Of a stretch of DNA of 34,202 nucleotides, positions 3,101 through 32,605 are shown one piece after another. The notes below the pieces were generated by a model that was not told the origin of the DNA, made no database searches, and saw only the letters and a list, made by a program, of their open reading frames with translations. This DNA comes from Clostridiales bacterium (lineage in GTDB: Bacteria > Bacillota > Clostridia > Lachnospirales > WRAX01). The stretch is taken from positions 1-34,202 of the forward strand of contig JAITMQ010000017.1 in NCBI GenBank assembly GCA_031277225.1, in the 5' to 3' direction. Numbering within the stretch: the first letter of the stretch is position 1; every line of letters starts with the position of its first letter. The translations under genes were made by a program, and so were the position numbers.

Positions 3101-6100
3101 GGAATCTATAGCCCGTGTTGGCGGTTGCGGTGAAGGTAATGCTCGTATTATTATCTACACGGCTTCCGCTCGCAATTCCGAGATTATTCGTAACGCTTCC
3201 ACCTGAAGCGGGCGAACTTGCGAAGGTAACCGCATGAGTGCTAATAAGCACGGCCACAACATTCAAACTACCACTAACGGCCGCCCTGGTAATCGTATTT
3301 CCGGTTTCGGGCGCAGCCACTCCATTGACCTCCCAGCGCAAAAGCCTGTGATTCGCGCCCGGAGTTACGGTAAAGGCAATATTTCCGCCACTTACAACCG
3401 TTGAGCCGCTCATCACATAGGGAATGGTGCTTATGCTTCCCGGCCCGCCCTCAACGCTATAGGTTACAACTGTTTCGCTTCCGGCTACAGGCAGGAATAC
3501 AAAGCGCATAACCGCCGCCGCCGTAACGGGCATAATAAAGTCATTGGGGTCTACTGTCTGCTCCTCGTCGCCTATATACCATCTGTCGAAACGATAACCA
3601 TCTCCGGCATCTACGGCGAAGCCCGTAATATCCGCGCCGCCGACTGCATAATGCCCATCAACAACATCTTCCAAGCCCGCGGCCATTTCGCCGCCCATTA
3701 TTTCAACAGAACCAAGGCCTTGTATAACCGTGGTCATCGCCACAAATGGCGTCCAATTCGCCCTAAGCGCGACGCTTCTAAGTGCCGGCCAGGTGAAATA
3801 GATATTTCTGCCATATGGCCCGTGGGTCATGTACGCGCCCGGCACATCTTCGATATTAATTTCGGCTGGCGCAACGACGGGCATTACATCACCGGCATTA
3901 TTTTCGGTGAAATTATCCGGCCTATGTGTAACCTCGTGCAAAGTCCATCCGTCAAATCTATGGTTATCTCTGCTTCCCGCCTCAATTCTGCGTTCGTCAA
4001 CCGTATGTCCGTTCCAGAAGAATTGCACCGAACCGTCGGGTTGCCCCGGTCTGTCTAGGACATAGACATGATAGAATCTGCCTAATTGCGCCGTTATGGT
4101 TACATCTTCTTCAGGCATTGTAAATCTATACCATTGCGAAGGCACGCCCGCCATCACGGGATTCGCTGCAGGGTTTTGCGCCCAATCGCGCACGAACCAG
4201 AAATGCGAATGCCAGCGTTGTTGTGGTCTTGCCACTCCGGTTGGTTCGGGAGTTTCATGCTCCAAATAGTCATGGAAAAGGAAACGCTCATTCCCGGCGG
4301 GGCTTGAAACATTCGGGCGAATTGTCTGCACCGTGCCCTGCTCAACAAGTGGGTCAAGCTCCATTTCTACCCTTGCAAATGGCGAATCCGTTGTCGCCGC
4401 GTCGGGGTCATTCGGCACGACTATAAGGGTTACAAGATGCTCCTCCTCCGGCGGGGTTACCGTAAATGTAACATTAAATGGATTTATCGGCTCGCCGTTG
4501 TTGCGGGTAATATCAACTTGTGCTGTGTAGGCTTGGTTTGAAACGGGGGTGGTGCTATGGTTCGCAAGCAAACCAACCACAGGCCAGATTCTGAAGACTG
4601 CCGTTTGCCCTGCGGGAATAGTTCCTGCGAATTCGCTTGCTCCGGGGGGCAATGGCCATGTGCCGTCATCCTCAGGTTGCGGAGGCAATTCGTCCGCATC
4701 AGCTGTCGCAATAATCCAGCCGCGCAATATAAAGTTCGCGCCCGCGTCAACTGCCAAATTGTCGATGGCAACGCCCAAAGTATTCTCCAGCCTAAACACG
4801 CCATAATTATTATCCCTCACAAGCACGTCGGAATAGCCTTCCTGTGCATAGCCCAAATCAATATCGGGGCCTGTGTGTGGCGGAACAATTTCGGGGGTAA
4901 TCTCGTCTTCATCGGTCGCCCAAGTTCCCGTAATTTCTACAGGCTCACTTGGCATTACAAACGTAATTGTCGCCGCAGAGCTTGTAATGCTAATTTCTTG
5001 CGATTCCCAACCGGTGAATAGATAACCCACCCGCGTTCCGGCGGTTATTCCAACATTATTCCCCGGCTCAACACCAAATGTGCCGCTATATGGGCGATTT
5101 GTTATAATTGGTGTATTCCCATCCAAAACGGAATAAACCGCGCCAAGGCCATGGTTTACAAGCGTAACGCCATATTGCAGCGCAACGACTTCAAATACAA
5201 CATCAAATGTCCAATATACCGCGCCCGTGTCCACAAAGCGAACTTGAACGGTTGTTCTATATTGCCCGACCGCAAGGTCTGTCCTTGACGGCATAAAGTC
5301 TATAAACAGCGCGCCATTTGCGGGAATTACGTCCATTGGAATATGCGAGGCATCCCTAAGCACGACATCAAGCCAATCTACATGGCCCGGAATGTCAACT
5401 TCAATTCGCATGGGCTGCGCCGCCCCAAATAACATGCGGCTTTCCCTATGCGCATTAATTGTATAACGCCCGACAATGCCGCGTCCAAGGTCAACACGGT
5501 CTTGCCCCGGAATTGGCGGCGGCGGCCATGCGCGGTCTTCGACTTTAAAGATTACGTGGAAAATATGCATCGAATTGTCGTCAAAGGTTGCGGTTACAGT
5601 CGCTTCATAGTTTCCGACGGGCAAATTGCCGTCTATTGGCCTAAATACGATTGAATGATTTCCGATGTATTCAAAACTAAGCCATCCCGCGCCTGTGTCG
5701 TCAATTTCAACGCTTGCGGCGTCGGCTAAGGGGCGGGTTTGCGTATGGTCATCCTCGATATTCGCCCCATATTGTGATACCAGGCCTATGCCGAGGTCGA
5801 CTTGCTCATTGGCTGATGGCGGTAGCGTTGGCGGCCAGGGCGGTTCGATAATTGGTGGCCATGGTGGGTCTATTTCGCTGGCATCCCAATTCGCCGTAAG
5901 CGTTACATGGTGGCTTGGCATCAAGAAGTTGATATTTGCCGTGTCTGCAACGCTAAAGGCGGGAGTGTTCGGATTCGTGCTGACTGTCCAGCCCGCGAAT
6001 TCGAAATCGGGGCGTGTTCCCGCGTTTACTTCGACATTTTCCAGCCCGGCAATAAATGGATGCGGCGGGTTATAAGGCCCAAGCGCGCCCTGAAGCCCGA

Positions 6101-28384: not shown

Positions 28385-28850
28385 AATCGGATTTGGAGAG
28401 CGCGATAAAGTTTTAGTGCCAATAAAATTTAAGCCGAGGAAATGGGCGGCTCTTGGTGGGAAGGACATATTTTTGGTCGATACCGGCGCAGACTTTTCTG
28501 CAATTTCCAAAAATACGCTTTATAAGCTCGGTTATGACTATAATTGGATAAAAGATAATCTAATTCGGGTAGAGGGGCGCGTTGGTACGGCAATCCACAG
28601 ATATGGTGAGGAAGGAATAGAGGCTCCTTATATCCAATTGCCCTTGATTAAGGTTTTGGGACGGGAAATTAGGAATTTTCCTTTCAGGCTCATAGAGAGC
28701 AAAGAGGCGGATTTTAACAATCTTTTGGGCAGGGATTTATTGTCCGGCTTCAATTATTGCTTCAACAACGACGAAAAAGCATTTTCAGCCGAACAAACAA
28801 AAAATTTCGCGCCCGCAAGGTCGTTTTGGGGTGGGTTGGAGATATGGTGA
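28377..28850 (+). CDS. Retropepsin-like (clan AA) aspartic protease domain protein (157 aa)
   Basis: The protein carries the signature of a single-domain clan AA aspartic protease. There is a beta-strand FLVDTGADFSAIS with the catalytic Asp-Thr-Gly at residues 35-37, and a later hydrophobic-Gly-Arg-Asp motif, NNLLGRDLLSGFNY, like the ILGRDFL segment of retropepsins. Such enzymes act as dimers, so one DTG per chain is expected. No membrane or signal segment is seen, so it is cytosolic, and the substrate is unknown. GGAGG lies 10 nt before the ATG. The start overlaps the 90-aa gene by 8 nt and the end overlaps the kinase gene by 7 nt, which indicates a tightly coupled unit. Confidence 0.82.
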   Translation: MIKIGFGERDKVLVPIKFKPRKWAALGGKDIFLVDTGADFSAISKNTLYKLGYDYNWIKDNLIRVEGRVGTAIHRYGEEGIEAPYIQLPLIKVLGREIRNFPFRLIESKEADFNNLLGRDLLSGFNYCFNNDEKAFSAEQTKNFAPARSFWGGLEIW

Positions 28851-29407
28851 TTTTGATTGGCGGGGCTTCCCACACGGGCAAAACCCTTATGGCGCAACGC
28901 TTGCTTGAAAAATATAAATATCCCTATCTTTCAATTGACCATCTGAAAATGGGGCTATATCGCGCAAATATCGGCTGCGGTTTTACGCCGCTTGACAGCG
29001 CGGAATTCATAGGGGAAAAGCTATGGCCCGTCCTAAAGGGCATTATTATGACCAATATTGAAAATAATCAAAATATCATAATCGAGGGCTGCTATATTTT
29101 GCCGCAAAAGGTGCTTGAGCTTGAGGATGGCTATCTCAACAGGGTAATTCCGCTATTTTTAGGCTTTTCGCAAGACTATGTCGAGAAGTTTTTTCAAACG
29201 AAAATCCTTCGCCACCGAAACATCATCGAATCGAGGGCCCATGACGATGATATGGCAATAAATGAATATGTAAAAGATAACAAAAAGCAAAAAGAGCATT
29301 GCCTTCTCGCAAATATGCAATATTTCGAGATAACCGCCGACTATGAAGCAGAAATGCGTGATGTATATATTTGGATTGACAAAGAGTTGAGCAAAAGGAG
29401 GTGTTGA
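28844..29407 (+). CDS. P-loop kinase / nucleotide-binding protein (187 aa)
   Basis: The N-terminus is a Walker A motif (LIGGASHTGKT, residues 4-14) on the first beta-strand of a P-loop kinase fold, followed by a YLSIDHLK strand and IIIEGCYILP. This is the layout of small kinases such as 2-phosphoglycerate kinase-like, zeta toxin-like and AAA_33-type proteins. The substrate cannot be told from the sequence. The ATG at 28844 fits the start of the fold. The open frame extends upstream to 28757, but that part only translates the retropepsin gene out of frame. It overlaps that gene by 7 nt and ends one base before the Phd antitoxin start, whose ribosome site lies inside this gene. Confidence 0.83.
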   Translation: MVILIGGASHTGKTLMAQRLLEKYKYPYLSIDHLKMGLYRANIGCGFTPLDSAEFIGEKLWPVLKGIIMTNIENNQNIIIEGCYILPQKVLELEDGYLNRVIPLFLGFSQDYVEKFFQTKILRHRNIIESRAHDDDMAINEYVKDNKKQKEHCLLANMQYFEITADYEAEMRDVYIWIDKELSKRRC

Positions 29408-29408
29408 G

Positions 29409-29702
29409 ATGACTTTGATTAGACCTGTTTCAGATTTAAAAGATAATCTTGCAGAGATTTCGAAAACGGTACATGAAGCGGCTCAACCTGTCTTTCTTAC
29501 CAAAGATGGTTACGGCAATATGGTTGTTTTAAGCATGGAAACTTACCAAAATATGCAATTTGACGCTGCGGTTTACTATAAATTGTTAGAGGCGGAGCGG
29601 GAAATTGAGCAAACGGATAAAAGATATTCGTCCGAGGAGGCGCTTGAGGCCATGCTAAATAGTCCTCAAGTTGCCAATAATTTGGCGCATAAGATAATTT
29701 AA
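29409..29702 (+). CDS. Phd/YefM-family antitoxin (97 aa), without an intact toxin
   Basis: Phd/YefM antitoxins bind DNA with an N-terminal domain to repress their own operon and neutralise a RelE/ParE or Doc toxin with a C-terminal tail. Family features are clear: RPVSDLKDNLAEISKTV, the QPVFLTKDGYGNMVVLSMETY strand and a charged helical tail. Its ribosome site (AGGAGG) lies at the end of the kinase gene and the ATG is one base after that gene's stop. The usual toxin gene should follow directly, but only a fragment of it remains. The antitoxin is therefore an orphan, possibly kept as a repressor or an anti-addiction factor. Confidence 0.92.
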   Translation: MTLIRPVSDLKDNLAEISKTVHEAAQPVFLTKDGYGNMVVLSMETYQNMQFDAAVYYKLLEAEREIEQTDKRYSSEEALEAMLNSPQVANNLAHKII

Positions 29703-29800
29703 AGAACTATATTATGTTTTACTTAATTGATGAAGAAAATAAATTGATAACAATCGCAAGGGTAATCTATTCCCGCCGGGACTATGGAAAGCTTCTGTGA
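29702..29800 (+). pseudogene. C-terminal remnant of a RelE/ParE-type toxin gene
   Basis: Right after the Phd stop, one frame reads KNY-I-MFYLIDEENK, LITIARVIYSRRDYGKLL and then stop. The ending (FY-[DE]EENK, then an I-R-x-Y-[GS]-RRDY-x-x-LL pattern) is characteristic of the last strands of RelE/ParE toxins. The first two thirds of the toxin, about 65-70 residues, are missing, and an in-frame stop lies just upstream (29690-29692). A 28-codon frame from ATG 29714 remains but has no ribosome site. It is best read as a deletion that inactivated the toxin. Confidence 0.78.
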
Positions 29801-29827
29801 TTCATTTCAAGGCCTAGGAGGAAGAAA

Positions 29828-30604
29828 ATGTATTTTGAAACGCATTGTCATTATGATTTTAAGCAGTATAACGACGACAGGCGCGAGGTGTTGGCGGGAT
29901 TGCCTGCTGCCGGGGTTTCTTATGCGCTGAATATCGGCACGACTTTGGCCGGCAGCCGCGCAAGCGTTGCGCTTGCGCGGGAATATGACTATATTTACGC
30001 CACGGTGGGCTTTCATCCGCATAATGCCAAGGAAATGCGCGAAGGCGACATTGACATTCTCGCAGACCTCGCTCTTGACCCCAAAGTCGTGGGCATTGGC
30101 GAAATTGGGCTGGATTTTCATTACGATTTTTCGCCGCGGGATGTGCAGCGCGCGCGTTTTAAGGAGCAATTGCAGCTGGCTTTGGATTTGCAATTGCCGC
30201 TTGTAATCCATTCCCGCGAGGCGGAGGCCGAAACCTTGAAAATCCTCGAAGAAAGCCGCGCAGGCGAGCTTGTCGGCGGAATTATGCATTGCTTTTCCGC
30301 AGGCCCCGCCACCGCCCAAAAATACCTGAATTTGGGCTGGCATATTGGCGTGGGCGGCGTGGTTACTTATAAAAACGCCGCCGCCCTGCGCGAAGTCGTG
30401 GCCATAACCCCGCATAATCGCCTTGTAATCGAAACCGACTGCCCCTATCTCTCCCCCGAGCCAAAACGCGGCAGCCGCAACGATTCCGCCAACCTGCGCT
30501 ATATAGCCGAAAAAATCGCCGAAATTTGGAATGTCCCCCAAGAAGAAGTGGCCAAAATCACCACCGACAACGCCAAAAGGCTATTCGGCATCAATATTTG
30601 CTGA
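29828..30604 (+). CDS. tatD: TatD-family metal-dependent hydrolase/DNase (258 aa)
   Basis: TatD proteins are cytosolic TIM-barrel metallohydrolases with 3'-5' DNase activity, linked to DNA repair and quality control. All expected metal ligands are visible: ETHCHYDF (His6, His8), GIGEIGLDFHYDFSP (Glu), VIHSREAEAET (His), GIMHCFSAG (His) and IETDCPYLSPEP (Asp). Length is normal. AGGAGG stands 6 nt before the ATG. It is more G+C-rich than the cassettes on both sides and looks like part of the core genome, placed between two decayed genes: the toxin remnant before it and the truncated Rpn gene after it. Confidence 0.95.
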   Translation: MYFETHCHYDFKQYNDDRREVLAGLPAAGVSYALNIGTTLAGSRASVALAREYDYIYATVGFHPHNAKEMREGDIDILADLALDPKVVGIGEIGLDFHYDFSPRDVQRARFKEQLQLALDLQLPLVIHSREAEAETLKILEESRAGELVGGIMHCFSAGPATAQKYLNLGWHIGVGGVVTYKNAAALREVVAITPHNRLVIETDCPYLSPEPKRGSRNDSANLRYIAEKIAEIWNVPQEEVAKITTDNAKRLFGINIC

Positions 30605-30636
30605 AAAGGCTTGTTGCTACGCTTTTGAGTATTCTG

Positions 30637-31275
30637 ATGGATGTCGATGGTAAGAAGGTTAATATTGAGATTCAAAATCGCAATGAGGGGAATTTTCCGG
30701 AGAGGGTTTTGTTTCATTGGGCTAAAATCTACTCGGCTTCTCTCCCCGAAGGTGAGAATTATATCAGCCTGCCGCAGACTATAATTATTAGTATACTTGA
30801 TTTTAAGATGTTCGAATGTGAAGAAGTTCATTCGGAATTTAAGTTGCTGGAAACAAAGCGGCACGAATTGCTGTCAAATAAGCAGATTTATCACTTTTTT
30901 GAATTGCAAAAGCTTAAGGATTTGGATCAGCTAGACTTGGAGAGCGAAAAAGACTTGTGGCTGGCATTATTCAATGCTAAAACCGAAGAAGAATTGGAGA
31001 AGTTAGCATTAAATGGAGGTGAAGTCATGGTTCAAGCTGTGGAAGCTTATAAAAGCGTAACCGCAACGGAGGAATTCAGAAATTTAGAATGGCTCAGAAC
31101 GAAGACGGCGCATGACGAGGCTTCGGCGATTGGGAATGCGGAGAGGCGTGGCGCGGAAAGCGAGCGTCGAAAGTGGCAAGGAGTTGTTGCAGAAAAAGAT
31201 ATAGCCCTTGCCAATGAAAGAGCAGAAGTCGAAAAACTCCGCAGGCAACTCGCCGCCCTACAGGCCAGAAATTAG
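30637..31275 (+). pseudogene. Rpn-family PD-(D/E)XK nuclease, 5'-truncated (212 aa left)
   Basis: Rpn proteins (PDDEXK_2 family) are DNA nucleases that promote recombination or act as toxins and defence factors. The retained part includes VNIEIQNRNEGNF (the E-x-Q catalytic strand), the FHWAKIYS helix, IIISILDFKMF, and a coiled-coil tail with MVQAVEAYKS, EWLRTKTAHDEASAIGNAERR and KLRRQLAAL. About 70-80 residues usually found before the first catalytic strand are missing. The position of the first catalytic Asp reads S in LLSILMD, and homology starts only ~25 bp after the tatD stop. The first usable ATG (30637) has no ribosome site. It is probably inactive as a nuclease, although the tail could still be made from an internal start. 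Confidence 0.78.
31015..31029 (+). promoter_or_regulatory. Internal ribosome site and start inside the Rpn gene
   Basis: GGAGGTG (31015-31021) is followed at ideal spacing by an in-frame ATG (31027-31029). It would give a separate 82-aa C-terminal product, MVQAVEAYKS to QARN. In Escherichia coli, Rpn genes make short C-terminal products from internal starts that restrain the long form. The same site and start are copied ahead of the next gene. Confidence 0.68.
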
Positions 31276-31285
31276 GGGTGAAATT

Positions 31286-31519
31286 ATGGTTCAGGCTGTG
31301 GAAGCTTATAAAAGTGTACCCGCTACAGAGGCATTTAGAAACCTTGAATGGCTAAGGATGAAAACGGCGCATGATGAGGCTTCGGCGATTGGGAATGCGG
31401 AGAGGCGGGGGGAAGCACGGGCGAATGAGAGATGGCGGGGCGTGGCGGTTGAAAATGAGAAGCTTCTCGAAGAAAACGAAAAGCTTCGTAAGCAACTCGC
31501 CGCCCTGCAAGGCAGATAA
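31286..31519 (+). CDS. Stand-alone Rpn C-terminal tail protein (77 aa), tandem duplicate
   Basis: This small gene is a duplicate of the last ~82 codons of the Rpn gene. MVQAVEAYKS, FRNLEWLR, KTAHDEASAIGNAERR and the ending KQLAALQ match nearly residue for residue, while the coiled-coil middle has diverged (ENEKLLEENEKLRK). The duplicated DNA begins at the ribosome site: copy 1 has GGAGGTGAAGTCATG and copy 2 has AGGGGTGAAATTATG, overlapping the stop of copy 1. The product is a soluble helical, coiled-coil protein without a nuclease core. It may be a free-standing version of the short Rpn product (antitoxin-like), or a leftover of unequal recombination. A strong terminator follows. Confidence 0.75.
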   Translation: MVQAVEAYKSVPATEAFRNLEWLRMKTAHDEASAIGNAERRGEARANERWRGVAVENEKLLEENEKLRKQLAALQGR

Positions 31520-31520
31520 C

Positions 31521-31553
31521 AAAAGCCCGGCGAAGCATCCCGCCGGGCTTTTT
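31521..31553. terminator. Bidirectional terminator between the Rpn tail gene and the kinase gene
   Basis: AAAAGCCCGGCG and CGCCGGGCTTTTT form a 12-bp stem around an 8-nt loop, with A's on one side and T's on the other. It starts 2 bp after the Rpn tail stop and lies about 75 bp beyond the stop of the convergent HipA-like gene, so it can serve both. Confidence 0.93.
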
Positions 31554-31558
31554 AAAAG

Positions 31559-31611
31559 TTCTCCTTGACATCACGCCCACAAAGGGGCATTTTTTAAAAT
31601 TTGCGCCGCCC
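31559..31611 (+). pseudogene. Decayed copy of the 5' end of the MATE transporter gene
   Basis: The 12 bases TTCTCCTTGACA (31559-31570) repeat the -35 region of the MATE promoter (32611-32622). Directly after them, 31573-31611 matches MATE codons at 32772-32810 in 35 of 39 positions without gaps (TPTKGHFLKFAPP versus TPTKGHLLKFALP). The ~150 bp that separate these two pieces in the intact gene are absent here. It is a small relic of a second MATE copy and is not expressed. Confidence 0.72.
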
Positions 31612-31626
31612 TAGCTATTTCGTAAG

Positions 31627-32556
31627 TTATACACAAGCCGACAAGTATCCCAGCCGCAATTCTAAAAGCCGGATATAAAACTGCTTTTGAATTGCGGGCA
31701 TGACCGCCAAATTGCCGTGGGTTTCCGGAATTTTTTGGATTAGTTCTTTTATTGCCTTCAGATTGACGGCATTTAAAAAGCGCAAAAGAGCGGCCTTGCA
31801 GTCGGGGTCATTGGTGTTTTTGATATAGTCGAAAGGGTTTATTTTAATGCCTTCGTTGTCAATACCTTTATACTTATACACACAAAGTTGCGTCTTATAT
31901 GCGTCTTCTTCCATTGCAACAGAATCAGCCAACCGCTTTTCCATTTGCGCAAGGCTTCTTTTGTTAAAAAATGCGTTTCCGTTGTCGTAAATCGGTGCTA
32001 GTTTCTTTCCGCTAAAAGGCTCCAGCAATAGACCCCAGTTTTCGTTATTACGGTCATTATTACCTATAAAAGCGTCAACGACAAACATATCCCAAAACCG
32101 TTCCAAAACCCCCGGAATACTACTTAAAGTTGCTTCGCCCTTCACCGTGGCAAGCACTTCATCCAAAAAAGTTTCAGAACCTGTTCCTGAAAAATTGTCA
32201 AGGTCGCTCGCCATGAAGCTGTTCTTTAAATTATGAAAATGTATCAAAAAAAAATTTTGGACCATGAGATTCGTCATGTCATACCTTAAAAAATCTTTAC
32301 AAGCAACAACCACTTTACCCTGACGCACACCAAGCAAGGTTTCATGAACCGGAATCCCTAGTGTTTCATAAACCTTAGAGCCTATAAATTCACTTAAAGG
32401 GCTTGTTGTATACGACATCTGCGGATTTTTCATATCCCTTGTCGTTTTCGGATATTTTAGCATCCAAACAGCGTCGTCATAAAGCACGGCTTCCTTTGCG
32501 CCCGCATTTCCGCCATAATAAACAGCCACAATTTTTATTTCATTGAAATCCACCAC
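31627..32556 (-). CDS. HipA/CtkA-like serine-threonine kinase, no HipB partner (309 aa)
   Basis: HipA-type kinases phosphorylate serine or threonine on cytosolic targets; HipA itself is a toxin, and CtkA of Helicobacter is a stand-alone relative. Visible are a Lys on a WMLKYPK strand (residue ~34, ATP contact), the catalytic loop FIGNNDRNNENWG (Asp168, Asn173) and the metal-binding LAPIYDNGNAF (Asp191). It lacks the ~100-residue HipA N-terminal domain, and no helix-turn-helix HipB gene is adjacent. The GTG at 32556, 8 nt after GGAGG, is chosen because an upstream TTG (32577) lies inside the -10 box and an ATG (32571) lies at the expected transcription start. It is more A+T-rich than the MATE gene it diverges from. 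Confidence 0.85.
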   Translation of the reverse strand: MVDFNEIKIVAVYYGGNAGAKEAVLYDDAVWMLKYPKTTRDMKNPQMSYTTSPLSEFIGSKVYETLGIPVHETLLGVRQGKVVVACKDFLRYDMTNLMVQNFFLIHFHNLKNSFMASDLDNFSGTGSETFLDEVLATVKGEATLSSIPGVLERFWDMFVVDAFIGNNDRNNENWGLLLEPFSGKKLAPIYDNGNAFFNKRSLAQMEKRLADSVAMEEDAYKTQLCVYKYKGIDNEGIKINPFDYIKNTNDPDCKAALLRFLNAVNLKAIKELIQKIPETHGNLAVMPAIQKQFYIRLLELRLGYLSACV

Positions 32557-32576
32557 AAAAACCACCTCCATCCCCA

Positions 32577-32605
32577 ATTATACCCAAAATTCCCCCGCTT
32601 GTAAA
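32577..32605 (-). promoter_or_regulatory. Promoter of the HipA-like kinase gene
   Basis: On the minus strand TTTACA (32605-32600) and TATAAT (32582-32577) are 17 bp apart. Transcription would begin near 32570, leaving a leader of about 14 nt with GGAGG before the GTG start. It is arranged back to back with the MATE promoter, the -35 boxes being 11 bp apart. Confidence 0.82.

Follow-up and report, generated by a model that had tools for sequence, protein, structure and literature searches.

The window, that is, the whole 34,202-nucleotide stretch analyzed here, probably carries an rpn-type toxin-antitoxin locus, now decayed, that belongs to the published RpnL/RpnS system. It is the entire contig C48 of a 2.16-Mb genome in 177 contigs, and we identified in it an Rpn nuclease gene truncated at the end of tatD, an internal start for its C-terminal tail, and a free-standing copy of that tail directly downstream. 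An intact twin of the locus lies on contig C3 of the same genome. The features of the window locus are the following:

29828 to 30604, plus strand: tatD (PF01026, E 1.9e-84), with the Rpn remnant fused into its end
30587 to 31275, plus strand: truncated Rpn gene (PF12784, PD-(D/E)XK), 5' end overlapping the tatD end, without N-terminus and Asp
30628 to 30640, plus strand: junction of an in-frame deletion of approximately 30 codons (ATT joined to CTGATGGAT), from comparison with C3
31015 to 31021, plus strand: internal ribosome binding site GGAGGTG, anti-SD energy -10.6, conserved in relatives
31027 to 31275, plus strand: tail 1 (t1), 82-aa C-terminal product predicted from the internal start, RpnS-like and with 84% identity to the C3 tail
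31274 to 31281, plus strand: solo-tail ribosome site AGGGGTGA, overlapping the tail 1 stop TAG (31273 to 31275), anti-SD energy -6.5
31286 to 31519, plus strand: tail 2 (t2), predicted free-standing RpnS-like gene, 77 aa, with its own ATG at 31286, tandem copy of tail 1
31521 to 31552, plus strand: terminator-like hairpin directly 3' of tail 2 (12-pair stem, -22.4 kcal/mol, z -5.1)

The long frame of the window (30604 to 31275) aligned to PF12784 only at positions 63 to 228 of 229 (E 2.7e-34) and also matched TIGR01784; the N-terminus of the window Rpn is therefore missing, as the preliminary description had stated. That description had also placed a ribosome site and start inside the gene, and both were located: GGAGGTG at 31015 to 31021, with an in-frame ATG just 3' of it at 31027. 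Its further claim, of a duplication beginning at this site and yielding a separate 77-aa gene, agrees with the tandem repeat that we found between 31011-31199 and 31270-31458 (77% identity over 189 nt), with the 3' ends of the 2 tail units sharing a further 80% identity over 46 nt. From the length and identity of the repeat, for which a chance level was not calculated, there is no real doubt that the duplication is real. Upstream of the ATGs at 31027 and 31286, identity was 7/10 and 6/10 in the first 2 tens and then fell to 1-3/10, so the ribosome site marks the start of the repeat. The remnant itself has possible starts at 30526, 30625, and 30637, with anti-SD energies of 0.1, -3.2, and -2.2. 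A consensus promoter scan of the plus strand from 29700 to 31700 identified no promoter-like site, and tatD is a possible source of read-through transcription into the Rpn tails; the hairpin at 31521 to 31552 was not among the sites of the consensus scan.

In E. coli, RpnS is produced from internal starts in rpn genes and blocks RpnL, internal initiation was also demonstrated for a gene from C. difficile introduced into E. coli, and in some strains RpnS additionally comes from a separate downstream gene (rpnES, which is ypaA, and rpnCS) that arose by independent duplications (Zhong et al. 2023, preprint, PMC10327210). The window and C3 resemble this system (COG5464) in having a PD-(D/E)XK nuclease gene with an internal ribosome site and start for its C-terminal tail, as read here from sequence, together with a hypervariable helical interface, with tail-helix repeats that vary after approximately residue 42. 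The window further has a separate downstream rpnS of the ypaA type, a local duplicate copied from the internal site with its own SD and start. The earlier proposal, in which the tail resembles an internal product of the RpnS type and its ribosome site is where the copy was taken, appears sound, but its novelty does not stand: the arrangement, including a separate downstream rpnS, is already known from that preprint and from E. coli rpnE-ypaA. Our literature search for separate or duplicated rpnS genes, of limited depth, found Zhong et al. 2023 (PMC10327210) as the sole report.

In E. coli K-12, we found that ypaA begins 12 nt after rpnE and is an 84% identical tail copy with homology from the internal SD; rpnE is annotated as inactive and ypaA as a pseudogene, and the ypaA product was detected by tagging (Zhong et al. 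2023, PMC10327210). As in the window, a presumably inactive long form is followed by a tail copy beginning at the internal SD. In contrast, rpnE belongs to another Rpn subfamily and is full length, whereas the long form of the window is truncated and C3 has 2 downstream tails. The window tails are also longer than RpnAS (77 to 82 aa versus approximately 49 aa, estimated from its stated mass of 5.4 kDa) and, unlike the published tail, extend into the Pfam nuclease model. RpnAS forms a compact three-helix bundle dimer (PDB 7TH0; PMC10327210), whereas the AlphaFold monomer model of tail 2 predicts a short helix (residues 2 to 9) and one long helix (15 to 76; mean pLDDT 85.5, pTM 0.40). The three-helix bundle is a feature of E. 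coli RpnA and no stated requirement of the RpnL/RpnS system.

Contig C3 encodes a full-length Rpn of 281 aa (5407 to 4562, minus strand) with the same internal site as the window, matching PF12784 at positions 3 to 228 (E 4.4e-42). The C3 copy fits a PD-(D/E)XK Rpn nuclease as the long form, whereas the window remnant, without the Asp, does not. Two further tails start downstream of it, at 4551 (t2) and 4297 (t3); the ribosome site of C3 t2 has an anti-SD energy of -6.5, equal to that of window tail 2, and t3 is degenerate, without a stretch present in other tails and ending out of frame. The tail-tail junction AGAAATTAGGGGTGAA is identical in the window and C3 arrays, and GEARAN[EK]RW is common to both second tails and absent from both first tails, so that one duplication most likely took place before the array split. 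Since C3 has this duplication and junction with an intact nuclease, the duplication predates the loss of the window nuclease, and the earlier proposal that the free gene arose as its toxin died finds no support. By these comparisons, the tail duplication most likely came first, the copying of the locus next, and the cut in the window nuclease last.

Homology between the window and C3 starts in the last tatD codons, from approximately 30586, where both read CGGCATCAATATTTGCTGAAAAGG. The tatD product ends in RLFGINIC in the window and in RLFGIN, RLFGIK, and RLFNF in the relatives G010, G009, and G006, each directly before the stop, and a short stretch common to both sides was likely present at the tatD/Rpn junction. 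Across the internal deletion, at approximately 30634, C3 reads SIELES...FCRLDIMMDVDG and the window SILMDVDG. The approximately 30 deleted residues include the Asp of RLD, invariant in the 16-row alignment A4, in line with the earlier claim that the long form had lost its catalytic Asp. The window remnant keeps the ExQ motif, whose E and Q are likewise invariant in A4; in this family, the Asp and this E and Q are taken to be the catalytic residues. In the remaining 130 nuclease codons, 28 synonymous changes between window and C3 stand against 6 nonsynonymous ones (dN/dS 0.04), so the nuclease stayed under constraint through most of the time since the two copies separated and was broken recently.

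So short a time since truncation also suits another explanation, in which the window tails are passive debris, a pseudogene left by the tatD fusion whose open frames persist since the loss is recent. We consider this possible, and on balance lean against it. The degenerate C3 t3 would fit it as well, but the solo tail predates the truncation and was under constraint as a gene in its own right, and both window tails retain start, SD, and stop, with a terminator-like hairpin behind. This constraint was found between the second tails of window and C3, where 8.0 synonymous changes stand against 2.0 nonsynonymous ones in the first 42 codons (Fisher p 8e-5); by this measure, the solo tail is constrained in coding over its first 42 residues. 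Over the whole second tail there were 31.2 synonymous and 30.8 nonsynonymous changes, in an uncertain alignment. Tail 1 of window and C3 differ by 15.2 synonymous and 19.8 nonsynonymous changes over 82 codons (dN/dS 0.32) and are less constrained than the nuclease remnant.

We compared tail cores more widely over 38 codons, each against the nearest intact tail. Pooled dN/dS was 0.097 in 61 intact loci, 0.139 in 33 broken-nuclease loci (some of which begin near a contig end: G224:C43, G037:C112, L170, and L209), 0.132 in 8 contig-cut loci, and 0.217 in 4 tandem copies. Tails below 60 aa were excluded except for these 4 hand-chosen tandem copies, and C3 t3, G212:C167 t2, and the G197 copies were left aside. 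Relative to intact loci, constraint on the core is somewhat relaxed in broken loci and relaxed further in tandem copies, which speaks against a decayed RpnL/RpnS locus with still functional tails, as does the weaker SD of the solo tail (-6.5) compared with the internal SD (-10.6).

Among the matches listed, hand reading of broken nuclease-first loci, contig-end cuts excluded, identified an intact tail frame in 7 of 11: the window, G006:C73, G208:C149, G082:C10, G178:C5, G006:C281, and G203:C22. The tail was broken in G067:C191, G197:C204, and G033:C75, and no tail stood behind the broken nuclease of G212:C110; G197:C265, whose tail is broken and which a contig end partly truncates, was excluded from the count. 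Seven intact tails are attainable by chance, through neutral decay of a shorter target, as passive debris would also yield, and do not establish selective tail retention after nuclease loss; the same holds for the earlier suggestion of a tail that outlives its toxin. Further, 13 of 14 nuclease fragments without a tail match, picked by eye among the matches listed, run off a contig end; an intact nuclease lacking a tail did not turn up among these 14, although the assemblies are fragmented.

The first 42 residues are nearly invariant among t1, t2, and t3, and the C3 tail core is nearly identical to that of the window, whereas the coiled-coil half varies in sequence and length. In window t2 this half is unlike those of t1 and C3 t1, and GERRGEARGEAR in C3 t2 is an example of the variation after approximately residue 42. 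The solo tails could accordingly be specificity variants that keep the docking part, change the coiled coil, and neutralize other Rpn nucleases or no present one. In E. coli RpnC, the repeat number sets specificity, and one extra repeat abolished inhibition (Zhong et al. 2023, PMC10327210), and t2 may therefore be a poor match for the nuclease of C3. However, no partner for t2 was found: a search of the own genome with the tail, at E up to 10, matched C48 and C3 only, and the other 2 PF12784 proteins of the genome (on C155 and C167) have tails unrelated to the window tails. We regard such variants as rather doubtful.

The internal start of Rpn tails is conserved in the sequences compared. An anti-SD energy of -8 or lower was found at 32 of 38 tails versus 11 of 213 other internal Met codons in the same frames (p 1e-19, overstated since the rows are related). 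These 38 tails are all those of the order sample whose frame is open for 100 residues or more upstream; they include the window and some genes that are broken or cut by a contig end. A set of named loci, partly repeating this sample, held 46 distinct tails in full-length genes, 42 of which start with Met, all reaching -8, and 4 with Leu. It could be argued that the SD and ATG follow from amino-acid constraint, the tail being merely a domain of the long protein, and per-gene synonymous shuffles seldom reached significance, with p 0.05 or less in 8 of 38 genes. Residues alone favour an SD, however, which accounts for these weak per-gene results; the site was stronger than the shuffle mean in 31 of 38 and no stronger in 7, of which 4 are G212 paralogues. 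GGRGG moreover occurs in 2 codon phases, as GGx (GGE/GGA) and as LEV, MEV, MGV, or GEV, and with different residues in each it is the nucleotides, not the residues, that are kept. Since amino-acid constraint does not explain this, nor why so few other internal Met codons are as strong, nor why tails occur as free genes, we consider it highly improbable, the more so as internal initiation was demonstrated for the E. coli genes and the C. difficile gene (PMC10327210).

A tail protein search gave matches in 11 of 96 genomes and a tail profile search in 34 of 392, own genome included in both, the latter with some weak matches to the coiled coil only. We examined 83 of the 89 profile rows, the 6 dropped being either further segments of a gene already listed or weak G323 and G333 matches. 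In related genomes, tails were repeatedly found apart from a full nuclease. The nuclease model was built on 32 long genes of the order sample, a few of which lie too near a contig end to show tail copies; such copies stand behind 4 of the 32: C3, G212:C167 (a broken copy), G264:C344 (intact, 97 aa), and G197:C217 (2 copies without SD). Copies also follow the incomplete long genes of the window, G212:C105, and G006:C281, and tails with a broken or missing nuclease were identified in G006:C217, G086:C150, G178:C5, G082:C10, G228:C166, and G143:C199. In L065 (G006:C217), at 2606 to 2986, a nuclease deletion joins the Rpn start in frame to the tail, giving a 126-aa frame.

We compared the 60 nt upstream of both starts to place the copy boundaries. 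Homology starts at or within approximately 15 nt of the SD in t1/t2 of the window and C3, C3 t2/t3, G212:C105, and E. coli rpnE/ypaA. In G264:C344 and G212:C167 it starts approximately 20 to 25 nt upstream of the SD, whereas G006:C281 shows it more than 60 nt upstream and G197:C217 only from within the tail; these 4 loci refute the notion that the ribosome site is always where a tail copy starts. In the last locus (L127), on the reverse strand at 1464 to 1972, an intact Rpn is followed by the 2 copies, which start within the tail (MSTAKAADEQYKYL) and have no evident ribosome site.

Among named relatives, 80 loci were kept from 101, with 17 labeled Defluviitaleaceae (7 among the first 10) and others labeled Oscillospiraceae, Lachnospiraceae, further clostridial groups, Synergistaceae, Treponema, and Candidatus Adiutrix. 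Many of the isolate names presumably stem from termite-gut projects. Tails of many relatives contain seven-residue units such as ADKDAAL, and similar tail cores carry different C-terminal modules, either a coiled coil (for example, L150 and L153) or a helical module such as EIARKLLKRNRPVDEIVEDTGLTYEEIKNLR (for example, L224). Rpn genes of the window subfamily were also identified on IMG/VR contigs (L147 to L151); L147 to L149 are like other loci, and L150 has a tail with a broken nuclease.

Under the preferred reading of a decayed RpnL/RpnS locus, the ancestor would have been a full Rpn nuclease gene with an internal start for its C-terminal tail, this RpnS pairing with the tail of the long form and, by analogy with E. 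coli, blocking the nuclease. Tandem duplication from the internal ribosome site would have added free-standing rpnS genes downstream, and the array would then have been copied to a second genomic place. On C3, the nuclease would have stayed intact with 2 downstream tails, the last degenerating; in the window, the 5' part would have been lost recently, through the junction in the tatD end and the internal deletion. The 2 leftover tail genes could be translated from transcripts through tatD, and their products most likely still dimerize with Rpn tails, dampening the C3 nuclease in trans. Action on an Rpn protein encoded elsewhere, as had been suggested, is possible given the intact Rpn of C3 and its near-identical tail core.

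Orphan antitoxins, or anti-addiction modules, are a general concept. The window resembles them in having an antitoxin without adjacent toxin and a cognate toxin elsewhere in the genome, but differs in that its putative antitoxin would derive by duplication of a nested gene. More broadly, the Rpn internal antitoxin might be a module of its own, repeatedly copied out, often at the ribosome site, forming arrays of up to 3 tails with the docking part kept and the coiled coil changed, and persisting in trans after nearby nucleases die. We consider this unlikely; if true, the genome-wide stock of Rpn inhibitors would set which Rpn nucleases a cell tolerates or acquires. Apart from this reading, the locus shows that an intragenic antitoxin can be copied out, as in E. 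coli, in a distant lineage as well (the named relatives are mostly clostridial) and in a different Rpn subfamily, several of the copies beginning at one and the same functional boundary. Since one genome has both an intact toxin and a candidate orphan antitoxin array, trans inhibition is directly testable.

Neither window tail matched DUF4351 (PF14261) at E up to 1, and tail 2 matched the HALZ leucine zipper weakly, below cut-off (E 0.0042). Against PDB sequences, the tail profile gave 3 matches only (E 0.41 to 0.64) and the sequence profiles likewise identified no convincing relative. A PDB structure search with the AlphaFold model of the full-length relative L154 (mean pLDDT 73.5, poor at 131 to 160) had no match at E 0.001 or better.

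The window contains further genes of related interest around the locus. A Phd_YefM antitoxin (PF02604) lies at 29409 to 29702, with no recognized toxin between it and tatD, and just upstream, at 28829 to 29404, is a P-loop protein with weak likeness to Zeta toxin (E 0.0095, below cut-off). At the contig end (34135 to 34200) there is a homopolymer-like run, poly-proline when read on the minus strand. A HipA_C kinase-like protein (PF07804) is encoded on the minus strand at 31627 to 32577, converging on the Rpn tails.
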